DNA of 33,121 nucleotides from assembly GCA_022843175.1 (NCBI GenBank), contig JALHOE010000088.1, positions 1 through 33,121 on the forward strand, in the 5' to 3' direction. Shown piece by piece: positions 23,601-33,121 of the stretch. The stretch comes from Deltaproteobacteria bacterium. GTDB lineage: Bacteria > Myxococcota_A > Polyangia > Polyangiales > JADJMO01. Below the pieces are notes generated by a model. That model saw nothing but the letters and a program-made list of their open reading frames with translations, was not told the origin of the DNA and ran no database searches. The position numbers were made by a program, and so were the translations under genes. The stretch's first letter is position 1, and the number at the start of each line of letters is the position of its first letter.

Positions 23601-25019
23601 ATGAAGAGCCCCGCCACCGTCGCCGCTCGGGTCCGAGTGGCGATCGTGTGCGGCCTCGCGCTGTGCCTGCTCGCCGGCGCCTTCATGTTCCGCGTGCACG
23701 ACGCGGTGCCGGCGGCCGACAAGCGCACCGTCTTCGAGCTCGGGGTGCTGCTCGTGATCGGCGCGGCGCTGTGCGGCGTCGCGATCGCGCTCGTCGCGTC
23801 GAGCGTCGCCATCGCACCGCTCGACGCACTCACCATCACCGCCCGCGCGATGCGCCGCGACCTCGGGCTCCGCACGCGCATCCGCGGCGAGGACGAGCTC
23901 GGCCAGCTCGGCGAGGCGCTCGATGGCCTCGCCGCGTGGGTCTCGAGCGAGAAGCAGGGCCTCGAGGACGACCGCAACCGCCTGGTCGCCATCCTCGAGT
24001 CGATGACCGAGGGCGTGCTCGTCACGTCGGGGGAGGGCGCGCACGACGGCGTCGTCGTTCTGGCCAACGCCGCGCTGCGCGAGATGTTCCTCTTCGAGCG
24101 CGCGATCGTCGGCCGGCCGCCGGTCGAGGTGATCCGGGCCGCGGGGCTCGACGAGATCTTCACCCGCGCGGCCCAGACCAAGTCCGCGTCGTCCGGGGAG
24201 CTCGAGCTTCACGGCTTGCGACCGCGTCGGGTGTTCGTTCGCGTCGCGCCGATCAAGGCCGACCGCCCCGGCCTCGTCGCCGTGTTCAACGACGTGACCG
24301 AGCTCCGCCGCCTCGAGAGCGTGCGCCGCGACTTCGTGGCCAACGTCTCCCATGAGCTGCGCACGCCGATCCATGCGATCTCGGCGTCGGCCGAGACGCT
24401 GCAGAACGGCGCGCTCGACGACCGGGCTTCGGCCGCGGACTTCGTCGACATCATCCGCCGCCACGCCGCTCGGCTGCAGCTCCTCGTCGAAGATCTGCTC
24501 GAGCTGTCGCGGATCGAGGCGCGGGAGTGGAAGCTCGAGCTCGAGGACACCGACGCCGCCGAGGTGATCACCGCGGCGATCGAGGCGGTCGCGGTCGCCG
24601 CGGCGCAGCGCGAGGCGACGATCACGCGCGCCGAGACCTCCCTGCGGGTGTCGGCCGACCGGCGCGCGCTCGAGCACGTGCTCTCGAACCTCCTCGACAA
24701 CGCAGTGAAGTACGGGGGGCAGAAGCCGGTGATCGAGCTCACGGTCGAGCGGGCGGGGGACCGCGTGCTCTTCCGTGTCCGCGACCACGGCCCCGGCATC
24801 GAGCCGCGCCACCTCCCGCGGATCTTCGAGCGGTTCTATCGCGTGGACGCCGGGCGCTCGCGCGCGATCGGCGGGACCGGCCTCGGCCTCTCCATCGTGA
24901 AGAACCTGGTCGAGGCGATGCACGGGAGCGTCGAGGTCGAGAGCCGGGTCGGCCTCGGGACGACCTTTACCGTGTCCCTGCCCGGCCCGGGCGGCGTCAC
25001 CGGGGCGAGCGCCGGCTGA
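23601..25019 (+). CDS. phoR: PhoR-type sensor histidine kinase
   Basis: 472 residues. Two membrane helices (about 10-30 and 47-68) enclose only about 15 residues, so there is almost no outside sensor, as in PhoR. A HAMP-like region (IAPLDALTITARAMRRDL, about 70-120) and a PAS domain (about 130-240) follow. HisKA has FVANVSHELRTP with phospho-acceptor His251; HATPase_c has NLLDNAVKYGG, RDHGPGIEP, IFERFYRV and GGTGLGLSIVKNLVE. PhoR is known to sense phosphate through the Pst complex and PhoU, both encoded directly downstream. It is separated from phoB by about 4 kb. Confidence 0.88.
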   Translation: MKSPATVAARVRVAIVCGLALCLLAGAFMFRVHDAVPAADKRTVFELGVLLVIGAALCGVAIALVASSVAIAPLDALTITARAMRRDLGLRTRIRGEDELGQLGEALDGLAAWVSSEKQGLEDDRNRLVAILESMTEGVLVTSGEGAHDGVVVLANAALREMFLFERAIVGRPPVEVIRAAGLDEIFTRAAQTKSASSGELELHGLRPRRVFVRVAPIKADRPGLVAVFNDVTELRRLESVRRDFVANVSHELRTPIHAISASAETLQNGALDDRASAADFVDIIRRHAARLQLLVEDLLELSRIEAREWKLELEDTDAAEVITAAIEAVAVAAAQREATITRAETSLRVSADRRALEHVLSNLLDNAVKYGGQKPVIELTVERAGDRVLFRVRDHGPGIEPRHLPRIFERFYRVDAGRSRAIGGTGLGLSIVKNLVEAMHGSVEVESRVGLGTTFTVSLPGPGGVTGASAG

Positions 25020-25063
25020 CACCGAATCGTCACCGAACCGTCAAAGGGACGGCACCCTATGTG
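25016..25063 (+). promoter_or_regulatory. Putative Pho box and -10 before pstB
   Basis: Half-sites GACA (25018), GTCA (25029) and GTCA (25040) are each 11 bases apart, with shared flanks (CACCGAA twice, then GTCAAAG). TATGTG at 25058-25063 lies 11 bases after the array and could be the -10. The GTCACC-N5-GTCAAAG layout is shared with the porin promoter. The array begins inside the phoR stop codon. Confidence 0.65.
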
Positions 25064-25077
25064 CCTAACGTCCGGGC

Positions 25078-25863
25078 GTGCCGACAGCAGCCCTGCCCAC
25101 GAAGATTGAGGTGCAGAACCTCAACGTCTTCTATCGCGCCGAGAAGAAGGCCGAGACGCAGGCTCTCAAGGATGTTGCGCTGGAGATTCGCGATCGCGAA
25201 GTCCTTGCGCTGATCGGCCCGTCCGGCTGCGGAAAGAGCACGTTTCTCCGCGTGCTCAACCGCATGAACGACACGGTCCCCGGCGCTCGCGTCGAGGGGC
25301 GGGTGTTGCTCGAGGGCGAGGACGTCCTCGCGAAGGGGTACGACGTCGTCGGGCTCCGCCGCAGGGTCGGGATGGTGTTCCAGCGTCCCCAGCCGTTCCC
25401 CAAGTCGATCTTCGACAACGTGGCGTTCGGCGTGCGCGCCCACGGGCTCACCGACAAGAACGAGATCGTCCGTCGCGTCGAGTCCGCGCTCGGCCGCGCC
25501 GCGCTGTGGGACGAGGTCAAGGACCGGCTCGAGGCCTCGGCGCTCAGCCTCTCGGGAGGTCAGGCGCAGCGCCTCTGCATCGCCCGCGCGCTCGCCGTCG
25601 AGCCCGAGGTGCTCCTCATGGACGAGCCGACGAGCGCGCTCGACCCCATCGCGACCGCGCGCCTCGAAGAGCTGATCCACGAGCTCCGCGCGGATCTCAC
25701 GATTGTGATCGTCACCCACTCCATGCAGCAGGCCGCGCGCGTCTCGCAGCGGACGGGCTTCTTCTACATGGGCAACCTGATCGAGGTCGGCCCGACCAAG
25801 CAGATGTTCACGCGTCCGCGCGAGAACAAGACCGAGGACTACATCTCGGGGAGGTTCGGATGA
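25078..25863 (+). CDS. pstB: Phosphate ABC transporter ATP-binding protein
   Basis: Powers high-affinity phosphate import through PstC/PstA. 261 residues, usual for PstB. Walker [10 protein letters not shown] (47-55), Q-loop [16 protein letters not shown] (typical PstB wording), signature LSGGQAQR (from 158), Walker [14 protein letters not shown] and switch His in [12 protein letters not shown]. The C-terminal [23 protein letters not shown] is diagnostic of PstB. The start is GTG 25078. Its stop overlaps phoU by four bases. Having pstB first in the operon is unusual; most operons place it after pstA. Confidence 0.96.
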
Positions 25864-26540
25864 GACCCTCGCGCCACACCAGCAACGAGTTCGAGCTCGA
25901 GCTTCGCGAGATCCGCGGCCAGTTGGTGGCGATGGGCGCCCGCTGCGAGCGCGCCGTCCAGCTCGCGATCGCTGCGTTCCTCGATCGCGACGAGGCGAAG
26001 GTCGCCGAGGTCGTGGCGATCGACGAGAAGGTCAACCAGGACGAGATCGAGCTCGACGAGATGGCGGTACGCGTCCTCGCGCTGCGGCAGCCAGTCGCCT
26101 ACGACCTCCGCTTCATCGCGAGCACGCTCAAGTTCGTCACCGACCTCGAGCGCATCGCCGACGAGGCCGTCAACATCGCCGAGCGCGTCGAAACGCTGAA
26201 GAAGGCCGCCGAGGTGCCGCCGGTCTTCGACATCCCCAAGATGGGGCGGCTCGCGCAGAAGATGCTGCGCGAAGCCCTCGATGCCTTCGTCGAGGGAGAC
26301 GAGGAGCGCGCGCGCAAAGTGCTGACCGCCGACGACGAGGTCGACGCGCTCTACAGCGAGACGCTGCGCGCGGTGCTGACCTGGATGTCTGCGCACCCGA
26401 ACGACATCCCCGCGGCGATGTGCGTCGCGTCCGCGTCGAAATACCTCGAGCGCATCGCCGACCACGCCACCAACCTCGCCGAGCACGTGATCTATCTCGA
26501 GAAGGGTGACGACGTTCGTCACCGCAGGAGCCCGCAATGA
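25860..26540 (+). CDS. phoU: Phosphate signalling regulator PhoU
   Basis: Links the Pst transporter to PhoR and keeps the Pho regulon off when phosphate is ample. 226 residues, all helical, with the two three-helix repeats of the family. Conserved stretches are [51 protein letters not shown] and, in the second repeat, [22 protein letters not shown], whose E/D-rich motifs bind metal. It overlaps pstB and pstS by four bases on each side (ATGA), so translation is coupled through the operon. PhoU between pstB and pstS is not the enterobacterial order. Confidence 0.95.
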
Positions 26541-27391
26541 AACGCCGTGTCGCGATCGTGTGTGGACTGCTCTTCCTGACCGCCTGCACGCGAAAGGCCG
26601 ATCAGGGGCAGGGCGCCGCCGGCAAGCAGTCGGTGACCATCAAGGGCAGCGACACCATGGTGCTCCTCGGCCAGCGCTGGGCCGAGACGTACATGAAAGA
26701 GCACCCGGGCACGTCGATCCAGGTGACCGGCGGCGGCTCGGGCACCGGCATCGCCGCGCTGATCAACGGCTCGACCGAGCTCGCCAACGCGTCTCGTCCG
26801 ATGAAGGACAAGGAGAAGGCCGAGGTGAAGACCAAGCGCGGCGTCGACATCGTGGAGACGAAGGTCGCGCTCGACGCCCTCGCGGTCTACGTCGCCGAGG
26901 CGAACCCGGTCAAGGAGCTCGATCTCGAGACGCTCGCGAAGGTCTACCGCGGAGAGCTTACGAACTGGAAGGACCTCGGCGGCGCCGACCACAAGATCAC
27001 GCTCTACGGGCGCGAGAACAACAGCGGCACCTACGCCTACTTCAAGGAGCACGTGCTCTCCGACAAGGACTTCGCGGCGCAGGTGCAGACGCTCGCCGGA
27101 ACGAGCGCGGTCGCCAACGCGGTGAAGGGCGACGAGTTCGGCATCGGCTACGGCGGCATCGCCTACGCCGCCGGCATCCGCGCGCTCAAGATCAAGAAGA
27201 CCAAGGACGGGCCGGCCGTCGAGCCGAACCTCGCGACGGCGAAGGACGGAAGCTACCCGATCAGTCGATTCCTCTACGTCTACAGCGCGGGCGAGCCGAA
27301 GGGGCTCGCCAAAGACCTCCTCACGTGGATCGTGTCCGACGCGGGACAGAAGGTGGTGAGCGATGTCGGCTACTTCCCCCTCCCGAAATAG
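26537..27391 (+). CDS. pstS: Phosphate-binding lipoprotein PstS
   Basis: Substrate-binding protein of the Pst transporter, anchored in the periplasm by lipid. 284 residues. A lipoprotein signal ends in LTAC, giving acylated Cys17. The phosphate-site blocks are present: IKGSDTMV near the N-terminus, GGGSGTGIAALINGSTELANASRP in the middle and ENNSGTYAYFKEHVL later (Ser/Thr and Gly that coordinate the anion). The C-terminal PISRFLYVYSAGEPKG and VVSDVGYFPLP are family typical. Its 3' end overlaps pstC by 29 bases. Confidence 0.94.
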   Translation: MKRRVAIVCGLLFLTACTRKADQGQGAAGKQSVTIKGSDTMVLLGQRWAETYMKEHPGTSIQVTGGGSGTGIAALINGSTELANASRPMKDKEKAEVKTKRGVDIVETKVALDALAVYVAEANPVKELDLETLAKVYRGELTNWKDLGGADHKITLYGRENNSGTYAYFKEHVLSDKDFAAQVQTLAGTSAVANAVKGDEFGIGYGGIAYAAGIRALKIKKTKDGPAVEPNLATAKDGSYPISRFLYVYSAGEPKGLAKDLLTWIVSDAGQKVVSDVGYFPLPK

Positions 27392-28403
27392 ACCGGCGCC
27401 GGTGCCGGTGCCCGAGTCGGAGCCCGAGCCCGATCGGGAGCACACGCCGACCGGCGCGTTCCGCACCGTGGAGTGGCGCAGGAGCCCGCCCGCGTGGCAC
27501 CGCGTCGCCGAGATCGCGATCAAGGTCACCGCGCTGACCGCGATCGTGGCCATCGCGCTGATCTTCGTGTTCATCGCGCTCGAGTCGCTCCCGCTCTTCA
27601 CCTCCAAGCTCGTCCACCAAGAGGTCACCTTCGCCAAGATGTGGCTGCGTCAGGCGTGGGACGGCCCCGGTTGGGCGTGGCAGCCCACCTCGGGGGTGCC
27701 CAAGTTCTCGATCCTGCCGCTGCTCATCGGCTCGCTGAAGATCACCGTGGTGTCGGTCGCCGTCGGCGCGCCCCTCGGCATCCTCGCGGCGATCTTCACC
27801 TCGCAGATCGCCCCGCGGTGGCTGCGCGAGATCCTCAAGCCGACCATCGAGCTGCTCGCCGGCATCCCCTCGGTGGTCATCGGTGTGTTCGCGCTCCTGG
27901 TGATGGCCACCTGGTTCCAGCGGGCGTTCGGGTTCGAGCACCGGCTCAACGCGCTCGTCGCGGGTTGCGCGCTCTCGCTCACCATCATTCCCCTGGTGTT
28001 CACCCTCGCCGAGGACGCGCTGTCGTCGGTGCCCAAGTCGTTCGCCGATGCGTCGCTCGCGCTCGGCGCCACGCGCATGTACACGATCGTGAACGTGATC
28101 GTCCCGGCGGCGCTGCCGGGCATCGCGGCCGGCGTGGTGCTCGGGTTCGGGCGCGCGATCGGCGAGACGATGATCGTGGTGATGGCTTCGGGCAACGCGG
28201 CGCTCGTCAACTGGTCGCTCGGCACCTCCACCCGCACGATCACCGCGACGATCGCCCAGGAGATGGCCGAGGTCGTCCACGGGAGCCCCCACTACGTCGT
28301 GCTGTTCGTGCTCGGCGCCACGCTCTTGCTCTTCGCCTTCGCGACCAACCTCGTCGCCCAACGGATCGTCGACCGCTTTCGTCGCAAGCGAGGTGGAACA
28401 TGA
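27363..28403 (+). CDS. pstC: Phosphate ABC transporter permease PstC
   Basis: Inner-membrane permease half. 346 residues with about six helices. The BPD_transp loop is present (SFADASLALGATRMYTIVNVIVPAALPGIAAGVVLGFGRAIGET), which contacts PstB. The N-terminal 45 residues are Pro/Glu-rich and basic (RPAPVPVPESEPEPDRE), longer than usual. The ATG at 27363 lies inside the pstS end but has AAGGTGG nine to ten bases upstream, so I keep it; in-frame GTG codons near 27402 would remove the extension and the overlap. The stop overlaps the pstA start by four bases. Confidence 0.94.
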   Translation: MSATSPSRNRPAPVPVPESEPEPDREHTPTGAFRTVEWRRSPPAWHRVAEIAIKVTALTAIVAIALIFVFIALESLPLFTSKLVHQEVTFAKMWLRQAWDGPGWAWQPTSGVPKFSILPLLIGSLKITVVSVAVGAPLGILAAIFTSQIAPRWLREILKPTIELLAGIPSVVIGVFALLVMATWFQRAFGFEHRLNALVAGCALSLTIIPLVFTLAEDALSSVPKSFADASLALGATRMYTIVNVIVPAALPGIAAGVVLGFGRAIGETMIVVMASGNAALVNWSLGTSTRTITATIAQEMAEVVHGSPHYVVLFVLGATLLLFAFATNLVAQRIVDRFRRKRGGT

Positions 28404-29305
28404 ACCGCAAGATTCGCGACACCGCGCTCGTCGTCGCCACCGCGCTCGCCGCGCTGGTCGTGGTCGCGATGCTCGCCGTGATCCTCCTCGACGTCGTTCG
28501 CAGCGGCGCCTCGGCGATCTCGTGGACGTTCCTCACGCAGCCGCCGAGCGGCGGCATGCAGAGCGGCGGCGTCGGCCCGGCGATCTTCGGGACCGCCGCG
28601 CTCACCATCCTCATGACCGTCGCGGTGGTGCCCGTCGGGGTGGTCACCGCGATCTGGCTCACCGAGTACGCCGCGCCCGACTCGCGCCTCGCGCGCTATG
28701 TGCGGCTCGCGGTGTCCAACCTCGCCGGCGTTCCGTCGATCGTCTTCGGCTTGTTCGGCCTCGGGTTCTTCGTGCAGACGCTCGGCCGCGGGGTCGACAA
28801 GGTCGCGTTCGGGGGCGTGGTCACCTACGGCAAGCCGGGGCTGATCTGGGCGGCGCTCACCCTCGCGATCCTCACCATGCCGGTGGTGATCGTGGCCACC
28901 GAAGAGGCGCTCCGCGCCGTCCCGCGCGATCTCCGCGACGCGTCGCTCGCGCTCGGCGCGACCAAGTTTCAAACGACGTTCTACGTCGTGGTGCCGCAGG
29001 CGATGGGCGGCATCCTCACGAGCGCCATCCTCGCGGTGAGCCGCGGGGCCGGCGAGGTCGCGCCCATCTTGTTCACCGGCGCGGCGTACTTCCTCGCCGA
29101 GCTGCCGACGCACCTGAACGACCAGTTCATGAACCTCGGCTATCACGTATACGTCCTCGCCACGCAGTCGCCCGACGTCGACAAGACGCGCCCCCAGCTC
29201 TACGGGACTGTGCTCGTCCTGCTCCTGCTCACCTTTCTTCTCAATTTGCTCGCGGTCGTCATCCGCGTGCGGGCACGCAGAGCTTCCTCGATCGCGCGCG
29301 CGTAG
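28400..29305 (+). CDS. pstA: Phosphate ABC transporter permease PstA
   Basis: Second permease half, pairing with PstC. 301 residues and about six hydrophobic helices. Family blocks are AVSNLAGVPSIVFGLFGLG, LTMPVVIVATEEALRAVPRDLRDASLALGATKFQT and VPQAMGGILTSAILAVSRGAGEVAPILFTGAAYF. The frame is open further upstream, but ATG 28400 is where PstA homology begins and overlaps the pstC stop (ATGA). A kinase gene begins 15 bases after the stop, so the transcript may continue. Confidence 0.95.
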   Translation: MNRKIRDTALVVATALAALVVVAMLAVILLDVVRSGASAISWTFLTQPPSGGMQSGGVGPAIFGTAALTILMTVAVVPVGVVTAIWLTEYAAPDSRLARYVRLAVSNLAGVPSIVFGLFGLGFFVQTLGRGVDKVAFGGVVTYGKPGLIWAALTLAILTMPVVIVATEEALRAVPRDLRDASLALGATKFQTTFYVVVPQAMGGILTSAILAVSRGAGEVAPILFTGAAYFLAELPTHLNDQFMNLGYHVYVLATQSPDVDKTRPQLYGTVLVLLLLTFLLNLLAVVIRVRARRASSIARA

Positions 29306-29320
29306 CCATACTGATCGGCA

Positions 29321-30415
29321 GTGTCCGGCGGCCCCGTAGGCGACGATCTCTTCCGCTTGCTCGTTTCGAGCGTGCGCGACTACGCGATCTTCCACCTCGA
29401 CGTGAACGGACGCGTGGCCTCGTGGAACGCGGGCGCGGAGCGGATCAAGGGGTACCAGGCCTCCGAAATCATCGGGCAGTCGTTCGAGGTCTTCTATCCG
29501 CCCGAGGATCTGCACAAGTGCGCGCGGGCGCTCGAGGCCGCGCAGCGTGACGGCTCGGCGACGGACGAGGGGTATCGCGTCCGCAAGGACGGGTCGCGCT
29601 TCTGGGCCAACGTCGTGATCACCGCGCTGTTCGACGGCGGCAAGCACATCGGCTTCGCCAAGGTCACCCGCGACCTCACCGAGCGGCGCGCGGCCGAAGA
29701 GGAGCGGGTGCGACTCGCGCAATCGAACGAGGCGCTCCGCTTGCGCGACGAGTTCCTCTCCATCGCGTCGCACGAGCTCAAGACGCCGCTCACCGCGCTC
29801 AAGCTGCAGGTGCAGAGCCTGCTCCACGAGCGTGCTGCGCTGGAGCCGCGGGTCGCCACCAAGCTCGAGCGTATCGACCGCGCGACGCTGCGGATCACCC
29901 AGCTCGTCGACACACTCCTCGACGTGTCGCGCATCGCCACCGGGCGGCTGAAGCTGCGGGCCGCGCCGGAGGAGCTGCGCGCCGTGGTGACCGAGGTCGT
30001 CGAGCGCCACGACGCGCGCGCCCGCGCCGCGAACGTCGCGGTCTCGCTCCACGCGGACGAAGATGTCGTCGTTCACGGAGACCGGCTGCGGCTCGATCAG
30101 ATCGTGGCCAACCTGCTCGACAACGCGATCAAGTACGGCGGGCGAACACCGGTCGACATCACGGTGCGCGCCGAGGGCGACGTCGCGATGCTGCTCGTCG
30201 AGGACCGCGGCCCCGGCGTCCCAGTGGAGCAGCGTGGCCGCATCTTCGAGCGCTTCGAGCGCGCGGTGTCCGAAAACCACGGCGGTCTCGGTCTCGGTCT
30301 CTACGTCACTCGCGAGATCGTCGCAGCGCACGCCGGGAAGATCGCCGTCGAGGATCGACCCGGCGGAGGCGCCTCGTTCGTGGTGCGGCTCCCGCGGTGG
30401 GTGACACCGAAGTGA
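29321..30415 (+). CDS. Soluble PAS-domain sensor histidine kinase
   Basis: 364 residues with no membrane helix. One PAS domain (about 10-128: DYAIFHLDVNGRVASWNAGAERIKGY and a RKDGSRFW block) leads to HisKA (SIASHELKTP, phospho-acceptor His151) and HATPase_c (NLLDNAIKYGG, EDRGPGVP, FERFERAV, GGLGLGLYVTREIV). The start is GTG 29321, 15 bases after pstA. No response regulator is adjacent, so the partner is unknown; PhoB is possible given the setting. A gene after pstA that joins a second kinase to the Pst operon is unusual. Confidence 0.88.
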   Translation: MSGGPVGDDLFRLLVSSVRDYAIFHLDVNGRVASWNAGAERIKGYQASEIIGQSFEVFYPPEDLHKCARALEAAQRDGSATDEGYRVRKDGSRFWANVVITALFDGGKHIGFAKVTRDLTERRAAEEERVRLAQSNEALRLRDEFLSIASHELKTPLTALKLQVQSLLHERAALEPRVATKLERIDRATLRITQLVDTLLDVSRIATGRLKLRAAPEELRAVVTEVVERHDARARAANVAVSLHADEDVVVHGDRLRLDQIVANLLDNAIKYGGRTPVDITVRAEGDVAMLLVEDRGPGVPVEQRGRIFERFERAVSENHGGLGLGLYVTREIVAAHAGKIAVEDRPGGGASFVVRLPRWVTPK

Positions 30416-30476
30416 CGGTGGCGTGAACCGTCACCTCCGTCACCAGATCGTCGCGATCGCGTGCCCTCCGTGTCAC
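30402..30476. promoter_or_regulatory. Putative Pho-like half-site arrays before tonB
   Basis: On the plus strand GTCA occurs at 30430, 30439 and 30472, with weaker GTCG (30450) and GTGC (30461) in the same 11-base register after 30439. On the minus strand TGAC at 30402 and 30413 and TGAA at 30424 also step by 11. The reverse array partly overlaps the end of the kinase gene. TGACGG (30413-30418) and CCGTCA (30428-30433) form a dyad. The opening GTCACC-N3-GTCACC matches the porin pattern. Confidence 0.45.
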
Positions 30477-30498
30477 CACGCTGTGCGAAATACCGCGC

Positions 30499-31335
30499 GT
30501 GGCGTTCGAGGCCTTCACTCGTAAAGACAGCGGCGGTGGGCTGCACCAGCGGCGCGCGATCTCGTACGCCGCGGCTGCGTGCGTGCTGGTCGGTCTCGGC
30601 ATCGCGTCGGCCGCGCTGAAGTCGAAGGAGCTCCCGGCGCCCGCGCCCCCGAAGGAGCCCGATCCGGTCGAGGTGCAGCTCGAGGAGAAGATCGAGGAGG
30701 AGAAGCCGCCGGAGCCCTCACCCGAGCCGCCGCCCGTCGAGGTGCCCAAGCACGTCAAGGTGAGCGCGGCCCCGCCTCCTCCTCCGCCGCCCGATCCCGA
30801 TCCCAACCTCAAGGCGAAGCTCGACGAGAAGGATCCCTCGAAGGACGTCGGCGCGGCGGGCGCGCACGGCGGCTCCGGCGGGGGCAAGCCCGGTGGCACC
30901 GGCACCAAGACCGACGCGCCCGTGTGTGGTGGTGACGGTCAAGCGTGCTGCCCCGGCTCGCTCTGCAACGGCCCGCTCACGTGCGAGGCCAACACCTGCC
31001 GCAAGCCGGCCCCGCCGCCGATGCCGAAGGTCGAGATCAAGAAGCCGGCGCTCGTGTCGGAGGACGACCTTCCCGCCAAGGCGCTGAGCACTCCGCCGCC
31101 CGCGTATCCCGCCGCCGCGCGCGCCGCCGGCGTGACCGGCAAGGTCGTCGTGCGCCTCACCATCGACGAGCAGGGCAACGTCAAGGACGCGAAGATCGCC
31201 AAGGGCGATCCGAACTTCGACGACGCCGTGCTCGCCGCGGTGAAGAGCTGGAAATACGAGCCCGCCAAGCACCAGGACGGCAAGCCGTTCCTCTCGATCA
31301 AGACCGTAGCGATCCCCTTCAAGATCAAGCTGTAA
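30499..31335 (+). CDS. TonB-family protein with Cys-rich insert
   Basis: Transfers energy from the inner-membrane ExbB/ExbD motor to outer-membrane receptors. 278 residues from GTG 30499. One membrane helix (about 21-40) is followed by a Pro/Glu/Lys-rich periplasmic spacer (41-120), then a Gly-rich stretch. Residues 143-167 hold six cysteines (C143, C150, C151, C156, C162, C167) in a spacing like the disulfide-rich modules of secreted myxobacterial proteins; this is rare in TonB. The C-terminal TonB domain (about 185-278) has PPPAYPAAARAAGVTGKVVV, LTIDEQGNV and SWKYEPA. exbB follows 10 bases later. Confidence 0.9.
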   Translation: MAFEAFTRKDSGGGLHQRRAISYAAAACVLVGLGIASAALKSKELPAPAPPKEPDPVEVQLEEKIEEEKPPEPSPEPPPVEVPKHVKVSAAPPPPPPPDPDPNLKAKLDEKDPSKDVGAAGAHGGSGGGKPGGTGTKTDAPVCGGDGQACCPGSLCNGPLTCEANTCRKPAPPPMPKVEIKKPALVSEDDLPAKALSTPPPAYPAAARAAGVTGKVVVRLTIDEQGNVKDAKIAKGDPNFDDAVLAAVKSWKYEPAKHQDGKPFLSIKTVAIPFKIKL

Positions 31336-31345
31336 GGAAACGACG

Positions 31346-32050
31346 ATGGAATTCAATCTGAGGCACATCTGGGCTGAAATGGGCGGCCCCTCGCGGGTCG
31401 TCGCGCTCGCGCTGGTGATCATGGCGCTGATGTCGCTCGGCGTGCTGTTCGAGCGCATCGTCTTCCTCATGCGATCGACCGCCGAGACGCGCGTGTTCGC
31501 GCGCAAGGCGTCGGCGCTGATGAAGACGGCCGACCTGGTCGGGCTGACCAAGGCCGCCGTCGCGCACGAGAAGTCTCCCCTCGCCGGCCTGCTCCACAGC
31601 GGCGCGCTCAAGTACCTCGAGTACTGCGAGACCGAGGAGAGCGACAACCTCGGACCGATCGAGGCGGCCAAGCGCGAGATGACGCGCAAGGCCGAGGTGA
31701 TCTCCGCCGAGCTCCGCCGGGGCATGTCGATCCTCGCGTCGGTCGGCTCGCTCGCGCCGTTCGTCGGGCTGCTCGGCACCGTGCTCGGCATCCTCGGCGC
31801 GTTCGGCAAGATCGGCTCGTCGGGCAGCGCCGGCTTGTCGACGGTCGCGAGCGGCATCGCCGAGGCGCTCATCGAGACCGCGTTCGGCCTCTTCGTCGCG
31901 ATCCCGTCGGTGGCCTTCTTCAACTACCTGAGCGGCCGCGTCGACTCGCTCGAGCGCGACCTCACCAACGCCAACGGCGAGTTCCTCGACGAGCTCGAGC
32001 GCAACCACCAGCCGCTCGTCCCCGCCAAGCACAAGTCGAAGGCGGCCTGA
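31346..32050 (+). CDS. exbB: MotA/TolQ/ExbB-type proton channel
   Basis: 234 residues. Three membrane helices: about 17-42 (RVVALALVIMALMSLGVLFERIVFLM), 123-146 and 166-192. The conserved core LASVGSLAPFVGLLGTVLGILGAF and the later GIAEALIETAFGLFVAIPSVAFFNYL mark the family; the latter lines the proton path. ExbB pentamers surround ExbD and drive TonB. AAGGAA lies six bases before ATG. ExbB and TolQ are hard to tell apart; the tonB gene in front favours ExbB. It is 24 bases ahead of the first exbD. Confidence 0.93.
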   Translation: MEFNLRHIWAEMGGPSRVVALALVIMALMSLGVLFERIVFLMRSTAETRVFARKASALMKTADLVGLTKAAVAHEKSPLAGLLHSGALKYLEYCETEESDNLGPIEAAKREMTRKAEVISAELRRGMSILASVGSLAPFVGLLGTVLGILGAFGKIGSSGSAGLSTVASGIAEALIETAFGLFVAIPSVAFFNYLSGRVDSLERDLTNANGEFLDELERNHQPLVPAKHKSKAA

Positions 32051-32074
32051 GAGTCCGGGTTCGAGGAGGTCGTC

Positions 32075-32536
32075 ATGGGCGTGAGCGTTGAGACCGGGAA
32101 GAAGAAGCGGAAGGGGCCGACGCCCGACATCAACATCACGCCGCTCGTCGACATCGTGCTCGTGCTGCTCATCATCTTCATGGTGGTGACGCCGCAGCTC
32201 GAGGCCGGCGAGTCGGTCGATCCGCCGCACCTGCAGAACGTCGATCCGAGCAGCAAGACGAAGATCGACGTGCTCATGCTCACGTACACCAAGAGCGGTC
32301 GGTACTTCGTCGAGAAGGAGCAGCTGCCCGACGCCGCGGCGTTCGAGGCGCGCTTGAAGCAGGAGTTCGCGCGATCGCCGAACCGCCGGGTGATGCTCAA
32401 GGGAGATCACGCGACGCCCTACGGCAAGATGCGCGAGGTGTTCGGCGTGGTGCAGCGGGCCGGGTTCCGCGGCGTGGCGTTGGTCGTGGCGCAGAAGAAC
32501 GGCGACCCCAACGCCGCCGTCACCGGGGGTGAGTGA
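32075..32536 (+). CDS. exbD: ExbD/TolR-family protein, copy 1
   Basis: 153 residues. A short basic N-terminus (KKKRKGPTPDINITPL) leads into one membrane helix (about 24-40) with the essential proton-carrying aspartate, Asp26 in PLVDIVLVLLIIFM. The periplasmic domain follows, ending in GVVQRAGFRGVALVVAQ. GAGGAGG five bases before ATG 32075 is a strong binding site. The stop overlaps the second exbD by one base (TGATG). Confidence 0.94.
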   Translation: MGVSVETGKKKRKGPTPDINITPLVDIVLVLLIIFMVVTPQLEAGESVDPPHLQNVDPSSKTKIDVLMLTYTKSGRYFVEKEQLPDAAAFEARLKQEFARSPNRRVMLKGDHATPYGKMREVFGVVQRAGFRGVALVVAQKNGDPNAAVTGGE

Positions 32537-32964
32537 TGGCGATCGAGATTGGCGGACCGAAGAACGACAAGGTCAAGCCGGCGATGAACATCACGCCGCT
32601 GGTCGACATCGTGCTCGTGCTCCTCATCATCTTCATGACGGTGGCGCCCTCGCTGGTGAAGCAGTTCTACGTGCAGATCCCGAAGCACGAAGAGAAGAAG
32701 GCCGAAGCGGCCGACGACAAGAACAAGCCGGTCGTCCTCAAGGTGAAGAAGGACGGCACGCTCGAGATCACCGGCAACCCGATCGCGAAGACCGAGCTCC
32801 GCGAGAAGCTCAAGCGCGTGCTCGCCGCCAAGAACGGCGACCACACGGTGTTCTTCATCGCCGACGAGGAAGCGCCCTACGGCGCCGCGGTCGAGGCGAT
32901 GGACATCGCGCGCGCCGGCGGCGCCGCGCCGCTCACCGTGCTGACCGAAAAACCGAAGACCTGA
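32536..32964 (+). CDS. exbD: ExbD/TolR-family protein, copy 2
   Basis: 142 residues from ATG 32536; GTG 32533 would add one. The membrane helix carries the same PLVDIVLVLLIIFM block (Asp24). The periplasmic part differs from copy 1 but ends with the same kind of EAMDIARAGGA helix. Two ExbD proteins behind one ExbB is known from several Gram-negative TonB systems (for example Xanthomonas exbD1/exbD2). Here the copies share the membrane block but diverge outside it, as expected for two subunits of one motor. Confidence 0.94.
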   Translation: MAIEIGGPKNDKVKPAMNITPLVDIVLVLLIIFMTVAPSLVKQFYVQIPKHEEKKAEAADDKNKPVVLKVKKDGTLEITGNPIAKTELREKLKRVLAAKNGDHTVFFIADEEAPYGAAVEAMDIARAGGAAPLTVLTEKPKT

Positions 32965-33024: not shown

Positions 33025-33121
33025 ATGCGTCGCTCGACGATCATCGCAGTGATTCTCTCCTCCGCGTCGGTCGCGCACGCGCAGGCCGGCGGCGGTAGCG
33101 GCGCGGGCGGCGCGGGCTGCG
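33025..33121 (+). CDS. Start of a secreted protein, 3' partial
   Basis: Only 32 residues are inside the window. A classic signal peptide (RRSTIIAVILSSASVAHAQA, with a likely cut after AHA) is followed by a Gly-rich segment with a Cys (GGGSGAGGAGC). The gene follows exbD copy 2 by 60 bases on the same strand. It could be an exported protein of the TonB system, such as an outer-membrane receptor or an accessory protein, but the visible part does not decide this. Confidence 0.7.
   Translation, partial: MRRSTIIAVILSSASVAHAQAGGGSGAGGAGC

Follow-up and report, generated by a model that had tools for sequence, protein, structure and literature searches.

The window, that is the whole stretch of 33,121 nucleotides that was analysed, ends with a tonB operon. 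The genes and features are as follows:

30499..31335, + strand: tonB, an open reading frame of 278 amino acids with a GTG start and the Pfam domain TonB_C; exbB, exbD and exbD directly downstream
30556..30612, + strand: predicted membrane helix (residues 20-38), the most hydrophobic 19-residue stretch
30664..30687, + strand: D-box-like stretch PVEVQLEE (residues 56-63), from a by-eye motif comparison
30850..30918, + strand: Gly-rich hinge that precedes the module (residues 118-140), from the sequence
30925..30999, + strand: six-cysteine module (residues 143-167), from the sequence, an independent profile (33.6 bits) and its retention at locus L055 of genome G001
31000..31047, + strand: short Pro-rich linker that follows the module (residues 168-183), from the sequence
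31093..31323, + strand: TonB C-terminal domain (residues 199-275), from Pfam
31346..32050, + strand: exbB (Pfam MotA_ExbB, E 3.8e-32)
32075..32536, + strand: exbD, first copy (Pfam ExbD, E 1.4e-22)
32533..32964, + strand: exbD, second copy (Pfam ExbD, E 8.5e-22)
33025..33121, + strand: probable 5' end of a TonB-dependent receptor gene, with a signal peptide and a Gly-rich start; the contig ends inside it

The assignment of the first gene as tonB is supported by the TonB_C domain (PF03544; E 4e-19, 69.3 bits at a cut-off of 24.6), by the N-terminal hydrophobic stretch (residues 20-38) and the Pro-rich spacer, and by the linked exbB and exbD genes identified with Pfam; a receptor gene follows at L055 and a probable receptor start in the window. 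The stretch PVEVQLEE was compared with the D-box, the ExbD-binding motif as given in the available text of PMC10907165, but it differs at the sixth position and at the C-side proline and is a resemblance only. In the predicted membrane helix (30556-30612) there is no histidine, and by eye this also applies to the predicted helices of several relatives. An SHLS motif is described for TonB in the available text of PMC12204202.

Apart from the window's genome, the searches covered a single genome of the genus, G001, which by position and receptor identity corresponds to the MAG of locus L055 (JACPFM010000044, groundwater). At L055, the gene order is phoR-, pstB-, phoU-, pstS-, pstC- and pstA-like, tonB, exbB, exbD, exbD, receptor and a lipoprotein-like gene, the pho/pst names being read from the translations with no family scan. 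The window shows the same order up to the probable receptor start, with an extra sensor-kinase-like open reading frame before tonB. The L055 receptor consists of a carboxypeptidase-regulatory-like domain, a plug and a barrel, and its counterpart in the window's genome, which is 61% identical, is located on contig C99. The remaining receptor sequence lies at the end of this contig; no overlap with the window contig was found, and from the gene order at L055 we infer that the two contigs join in the receptor gene. When three other genomes of the family were searched for the receptor, no match at E ≤ 0.001 was obtained. Both in the window (23625-32964) and at L055, the tonB-exbB-exbD-exbD-receptor genes are thus linked with a pho/pst-like cluster, and phoR-like or other pho/pst hits were seen near the same tonB operon at L119, L120, L128 and L129. 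Two additional long frames of the window's genome (L002, L003) resemble outer-membrane receptors by eye and carry TonB_C near their start; they would be receptors with their own TonB-like domain.

A six-cysteine module in the TonB spacer

Residues 143-167 of the window TonB (30925-30999) read CGGDGQACCPGSLCNGPLTCEANTC. The cysteines C143, C150, C151, C156, C162 and C167 form the framework C-x6-CC-x4-C-x5-C-x4-C, and thus the six-cysteine segment that the earlier note had described in the TonB spacer is present at the residues, the coordinates and the spacing it had given. A Gly-rich hinge precedes the segment, a Pro-rich stretch follows it, and there is no CxxC motif within these 25 residues. 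The seventh cysteine of the protein (C28) is located in the membrane helix and is shared by the two genus genomes.

The earlier note had also held that TonB spacers are normally free of cysteines, and our counts agree. Between the predicted helix and the C-terminal domain, 39 of 43 ExbB-linked TonBs lacked cysteine, the exceptions being the two proteins of the window's genus (six each) and those at L070 and L072 (two each); four of the 43 rows (L032, L063, L175, L187) are cut by a contig end, have a mis-placed helix and test little. When the 110 residues that precede the C-terminal domain were inspected in 80 TonB-like open reading frames, any cysteine was present in six of them (the genus pair, L070, L072, L177 and L196). 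L070 and L072 come from two genomes of one other genus and carry GCVGC, i.e. two cysteines in a CxxC, in a Gly-rich TonB spacer; at this place, some relatives have GVAGG or GVVGG, and we read the cysteine pair as a separate gain. The available text of PMC12204202 characterises the spacers of TonB proteins as Pro-rich, helical or disordered, and the words 'cysteine' and 'disulfide' do not occur in the main text of this paper. A cysteine module in TonB was absent from the titles and abstract openings of the literature searched, among the matches listed.

The segment can be assigned to a family of 25-residue modules with the rough sequence CG..GQ.CC.G..C..GL.C..GTC. We collected 153 distinct modules from 27 loci and found that the spacing of the window module, 6-4-5-4, was the commonest (n = 82), followed by 6-5-5-4 (n = 20), 6-3-5-4 (n = 12), 6-4-5-5 (n = 11) and others in smaller numbers. 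The 82 modules usually read C-G-x-x-G-[QE]-x-C-C-x-G-x-x-C-x-x-G-L-x-C-x-x-G-x-C. Compared with this composition, the window module keeps the framework and the conserved positions G2, G5, Q6, G11 and L18, but it has a proline at the usual G17 and an asparagine at the usual G23.

To avoid circularity, a profile was prepared from 78 modules of other genera, excluding the window's genus. This profile matched residues 143-167 of the window TonB over its full length with 33.6 bits and the TonB of the second genus genome with 16.8 bits. For 2000 shuffles of the window TonB a maximum of 5.5 bits was obtained, and 41 other ExbB-linked TonBs gave no match at E ≤ 10. The difference between 33.6 bits and the best shuffle indicates that the module is present beyond chance. 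The six-cysteine module in the TonB spacer of this genus is real, and it is unusual.

The usual hosts of the module are different proteins. A six-copy profile, which combined the two genus TonB modules with the four copies of an open reading frame on contig C140 of the window's genome, matched 38 of the 56 genomes searched at E ≤ 0.01, the own genome included. At least two module copies were detected by a loose pattern in 25 of the 27 module open reading frames read (L114 gave no frame and L115 was left out), and a script flagged a lipobox in 17 of the 27; the latter is a rough count with at least two doubtful flags, L093 and L097 among them, and with likely ones such as L095 missed. In the whole genome of the window, the DNA pattern of the module gave six matches, compared with two for a reversed control pattern. 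Four of the six are located in the C140 open reading frame, which has a lipobox-like start and four module copies, and the match on C157 falls in what appears by eye to be a low-complexity stretch. The resemblance to disulfide-rich repeats of secreted proteins, which the earlier note had pointed out, is borne out by these findings: repeats of the same kind occur in lipoprotein-like proteins of related genomes.

We know of no established function of this module, and no curated family of Pfam or NCBIfam covers it alone at E ≤ 10. NF041620 over residues 42-211 of the TonB (E 0.22, 11.2 bits at a cut-off of 200) and RCDG1 in the C140 lipoprotein (E 0.91) stayed below their cut-offs. Seven other module proteins were searched in Pfam, and five of them in NCBIfam, with a single match above the cut-off; this was Cu-binding_MopE in L089 (residues 216-245), which is located after the modules. 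The protein at L100 (genome G017) combines a lipobox-like start, a weak beta-helix match below the cut-off and a single module copy near its N-terminus. A pattern scan of viral contigs yielded 35 loci, of which 14 have an open frame carrying the pattern; 13 of these frames look Cys-rich or of low complexity and were rejected. The remaining one, a frame of 484 aa at L146, lies on a viral-collection contig of 168 kb, and by eye its segment 5921-5995 looks like a real module.

Distribution and origin of the module

The TonB encoded at L055 shares 71% protein identity with the window TonB and carries the module at the same place, with all six cysteines kept. Its spacing is 6-3-5-5, which is not among the twelve spacings listed for the 153 modules, although each of the changes occurs separately.

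For the wider distribution, the module and the C-terminal domain together served as query against 183 genomes from the order and 377 from the phylum, the latter being a selection from a larger group; at most 489 different genomes were covered in this way. TonB-like open reading frames were read at the best-match loci, in the fetched regions and at 20 places whose alignments reached the module. Here, the module was found in 2 of 80 distinct open reading frames, both from the window's genus, and in none of the 78 read outside it. Considering the 43 TonBs with exbB directly downstream, it was absent from all 41 that remain when the genus pair is excepted. The contig scan for the module used two peptide patterns, and its outcome holds among the matches listed. 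The earlier note had counted absence from close homologues, which would point to a chance insertion, or free variation against its own reading, and in this respect the result is divided: the module is kept with its six cysteines in G001 but it does not occur in any TonB read outside the genus.

Of 15 regions retrieved from other genomes, 11 show the order tonB-exbB-exbD-exbD-receptor (the exceptions are L120, L124, L125 and L127). In 10 of the 15 a lipoprotein gene also comes last, in some of them after a gap; L129 is without it. None of the TonBs in the 15 regions carries the six-cysteine module. Since the operon is shared with module-less TonBs and is thus widespread in the order, what is new here is the module. 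A mapping of the module to particular receptor types, as the earlier note had envisaged, led nowhere, because TonBs without the module are found with the same receptor operon and the module does not track the receptor type.

In a tree built from the 125 C-terminal residues of the 43 ExbB-linked TonBs, a single change suffices to explain the module and the genus pair is supported by 100/100; the deep forks of this tree are weak, its root is for drawing only and the window row is unusual in composition. Many module-less relatives have, at the corresponding place, a similar Gly-rich stretch followed by Pro-rich sequence. The spacers of the genus comprise 144-146 residues compared with a median of 123 (range 109-148) in 37 uncut relatives, and this difference of about 22 residues is what an inserted module predicts. 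However, the ranges overlap. Because the genus spacers lie inside the range of the relatives, length alone is no proof of insertion, and the case for it rests on the flanks and the tree. Most simply, the module was gained once, in the ancestor of one genus.

Predicted structure and conservation

When the module alone was modelled (from three sequences), the mean pLDDT was 79.1 and the pTM 0.46, and two short strands were predicted. For the whole TonB, modelled from two sequences, the mean pLDDT was 52.6, and it can be seen that the blocks of residues 141-170 (63, 69 and 75) stand between blocks at 35 and 47. The spacer is thus predicted to be disordered apart from one small ordered island, and the suggestion of a rigid element made in the earlier note would be compatible with this. 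Foldseek returned 20 PDB matches at E ≤ 10 (best E 0.4), whose names indicate small disulfide-rich peptides or domains, and none at E ≤ 0.001. With VIA, the best Z was 3.6, which is weak, and a sequence search of the PDB gave three hits (E 0.11, 0.16 and 5.9), none of them significant. A knottin-like bead would fit the predicted module.

Selection was assessed by comparing the two genomes (window and L055). All six module cysteines are kept, with one codon differing (TGT/TGC), and 10 of 18 aligned non-cysteine positions are identical. The dN/dS of the module was 0.28 with and 0.42 without the cysteines; the corresponding values were 0.38 for the spacer before the module, 0.52 for the linker after it and 0.46 for the C-terminal domain. 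With the cysteines left aside, conservation in the module does not exceed that of the surrounding spacer, and this two-genome comparison provided no evidence of constraint on the non-cysteine positions. By simple arithmetic from the same comparison, keeping all six cysteines has a chance of about 0.03 if each of them is given the identity of the remaining module positions, 0.56. For the two genomes, these data weakly suggest constraint on the module cysteines.

Proposed working and relation to known systems

We consider it probable that a lipoprotein-type module was grafted once into an ordinary TonB, where it would form a disulfide-stapled structural bead. The sequences show an ordinary ExbB/ExbD-linked TonB whose spacer gained a single module copy, most simply once, in the genus ancestor. 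In the oxidising periplasm, the six cysteines would form three disulfides, in keeping with the 16 DSBA-family matches in the window's genome, and a compact knottin-like bead would have the flexible Gly-rich hinge on one side and, on the other, the Pro-rich linker by the receptor-binding domain. Such a folded bead would add about 25 residues and little reach. Its most likely role would be that of a stiff, protease-resistant knob that sets the spacer geometry near the outer-membrane end, and a docking surface for an envelope partner would be the next most likely one. ExbB/ExbD would exert their pull through the spacer in the same manner as for any other TonB.

A docking role taken by itself, in which the bead binds the receptor, peptidoglycan or module-bearing lipoproteins and localises or gates TonB, is a tentative alternative. 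The module lies in a suitable position near the receptor-binding domain, and related modules occur in lipoprotein-like proteins, one of which, with four copies, is encoded in the window's genome. However, no partner was found, and the module-less TonBs with the same operon in 11 of the 15 regions imply that this type of receptor can do without the module. We regard it as rather unlikely that the TonB module was recruited from outer-membrane lipoproteins as a docking bead for one particular partner in the envelope, perhaps the lipoproteins that contain the same module; if true, this bead would give TonB a kind of positioning or gating that no other TonB is known to have.

It is likewise conceivable, and we say so with reserve, that the domain graft was simply tolerated in a permissive spacer and was kept by chance in two related genomes. 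Only these two genomes carry the module in TonB, its non-cysteine positions evolve like the spacer, and spacer sequence varies widely across relatives. Against such neutrality stands the retention of all six cysteines at 71% protein identity, and the x3 and x5 changes in the L055 spacing each occur in other modules, the combination not being listed.

A redox switch, in which the cysteines sense periplasmic oxidation and change the reach or pairing of TonB, had been offered in the earlier note and now appears very improbable. The cysteines do lie in a force-bearing linker and the window's genome contains 16 DSBA-family matches, but the module is without CxxC and its six cysteines are arranged as in a module that occurs in repeats and is evidently structural. 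We regard a structural or docking role as more likely. Finally, the idea that a frameshift or a chimeric assembly put the module into tonB deserves practically no credence: the window stems from a draft genome in 470 contigs, but the separate assembly JACPFM010000044 has the module in frame, at the same place and with the same flanks.

If the structural bead is the correct reading, the pulling path would contain a folded element held by disulfides, and this would provide a natural test of how much local structure a TonB spacer tolerates and of the part of TonB on which the force acts. A further suggestion is that transfer into a transducer of the inner membrane is open to a widespread lipoprotein module.

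Among known systems, the module may be compared with inhibitor-cystine-knot (knottin) peptides, since it is a small six-cysteine unit and its weak best structural matches are mostly knottins. In the classical knottin framework (C..C..CC..C..C), which has the disulfides I-IV, II-V and III-VI, the adjacent pair is formed by the third and fourth cysteines, whereas in the window module it is formed by the second and third; the classical order was therefore rejected for this module. With the CG..CC modules of lipoprotein-like proteins it shares the cysteine framework and many conserved positions, but those hosts have several copies per protein, whereas the window protein has a single copy in an inner-membrane-anchored transducer. 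In all other respects listed here, the window protein resembles a canonical TonB: it has the membrane helix, the D-box-like stretch, the Pro-rich spacer and TonB_C, and its gene is followed by exbB, two exbD genes and then the receptor. It differs from the canonical TonB in the 25-residue six-cysteine module that its spacer contains.
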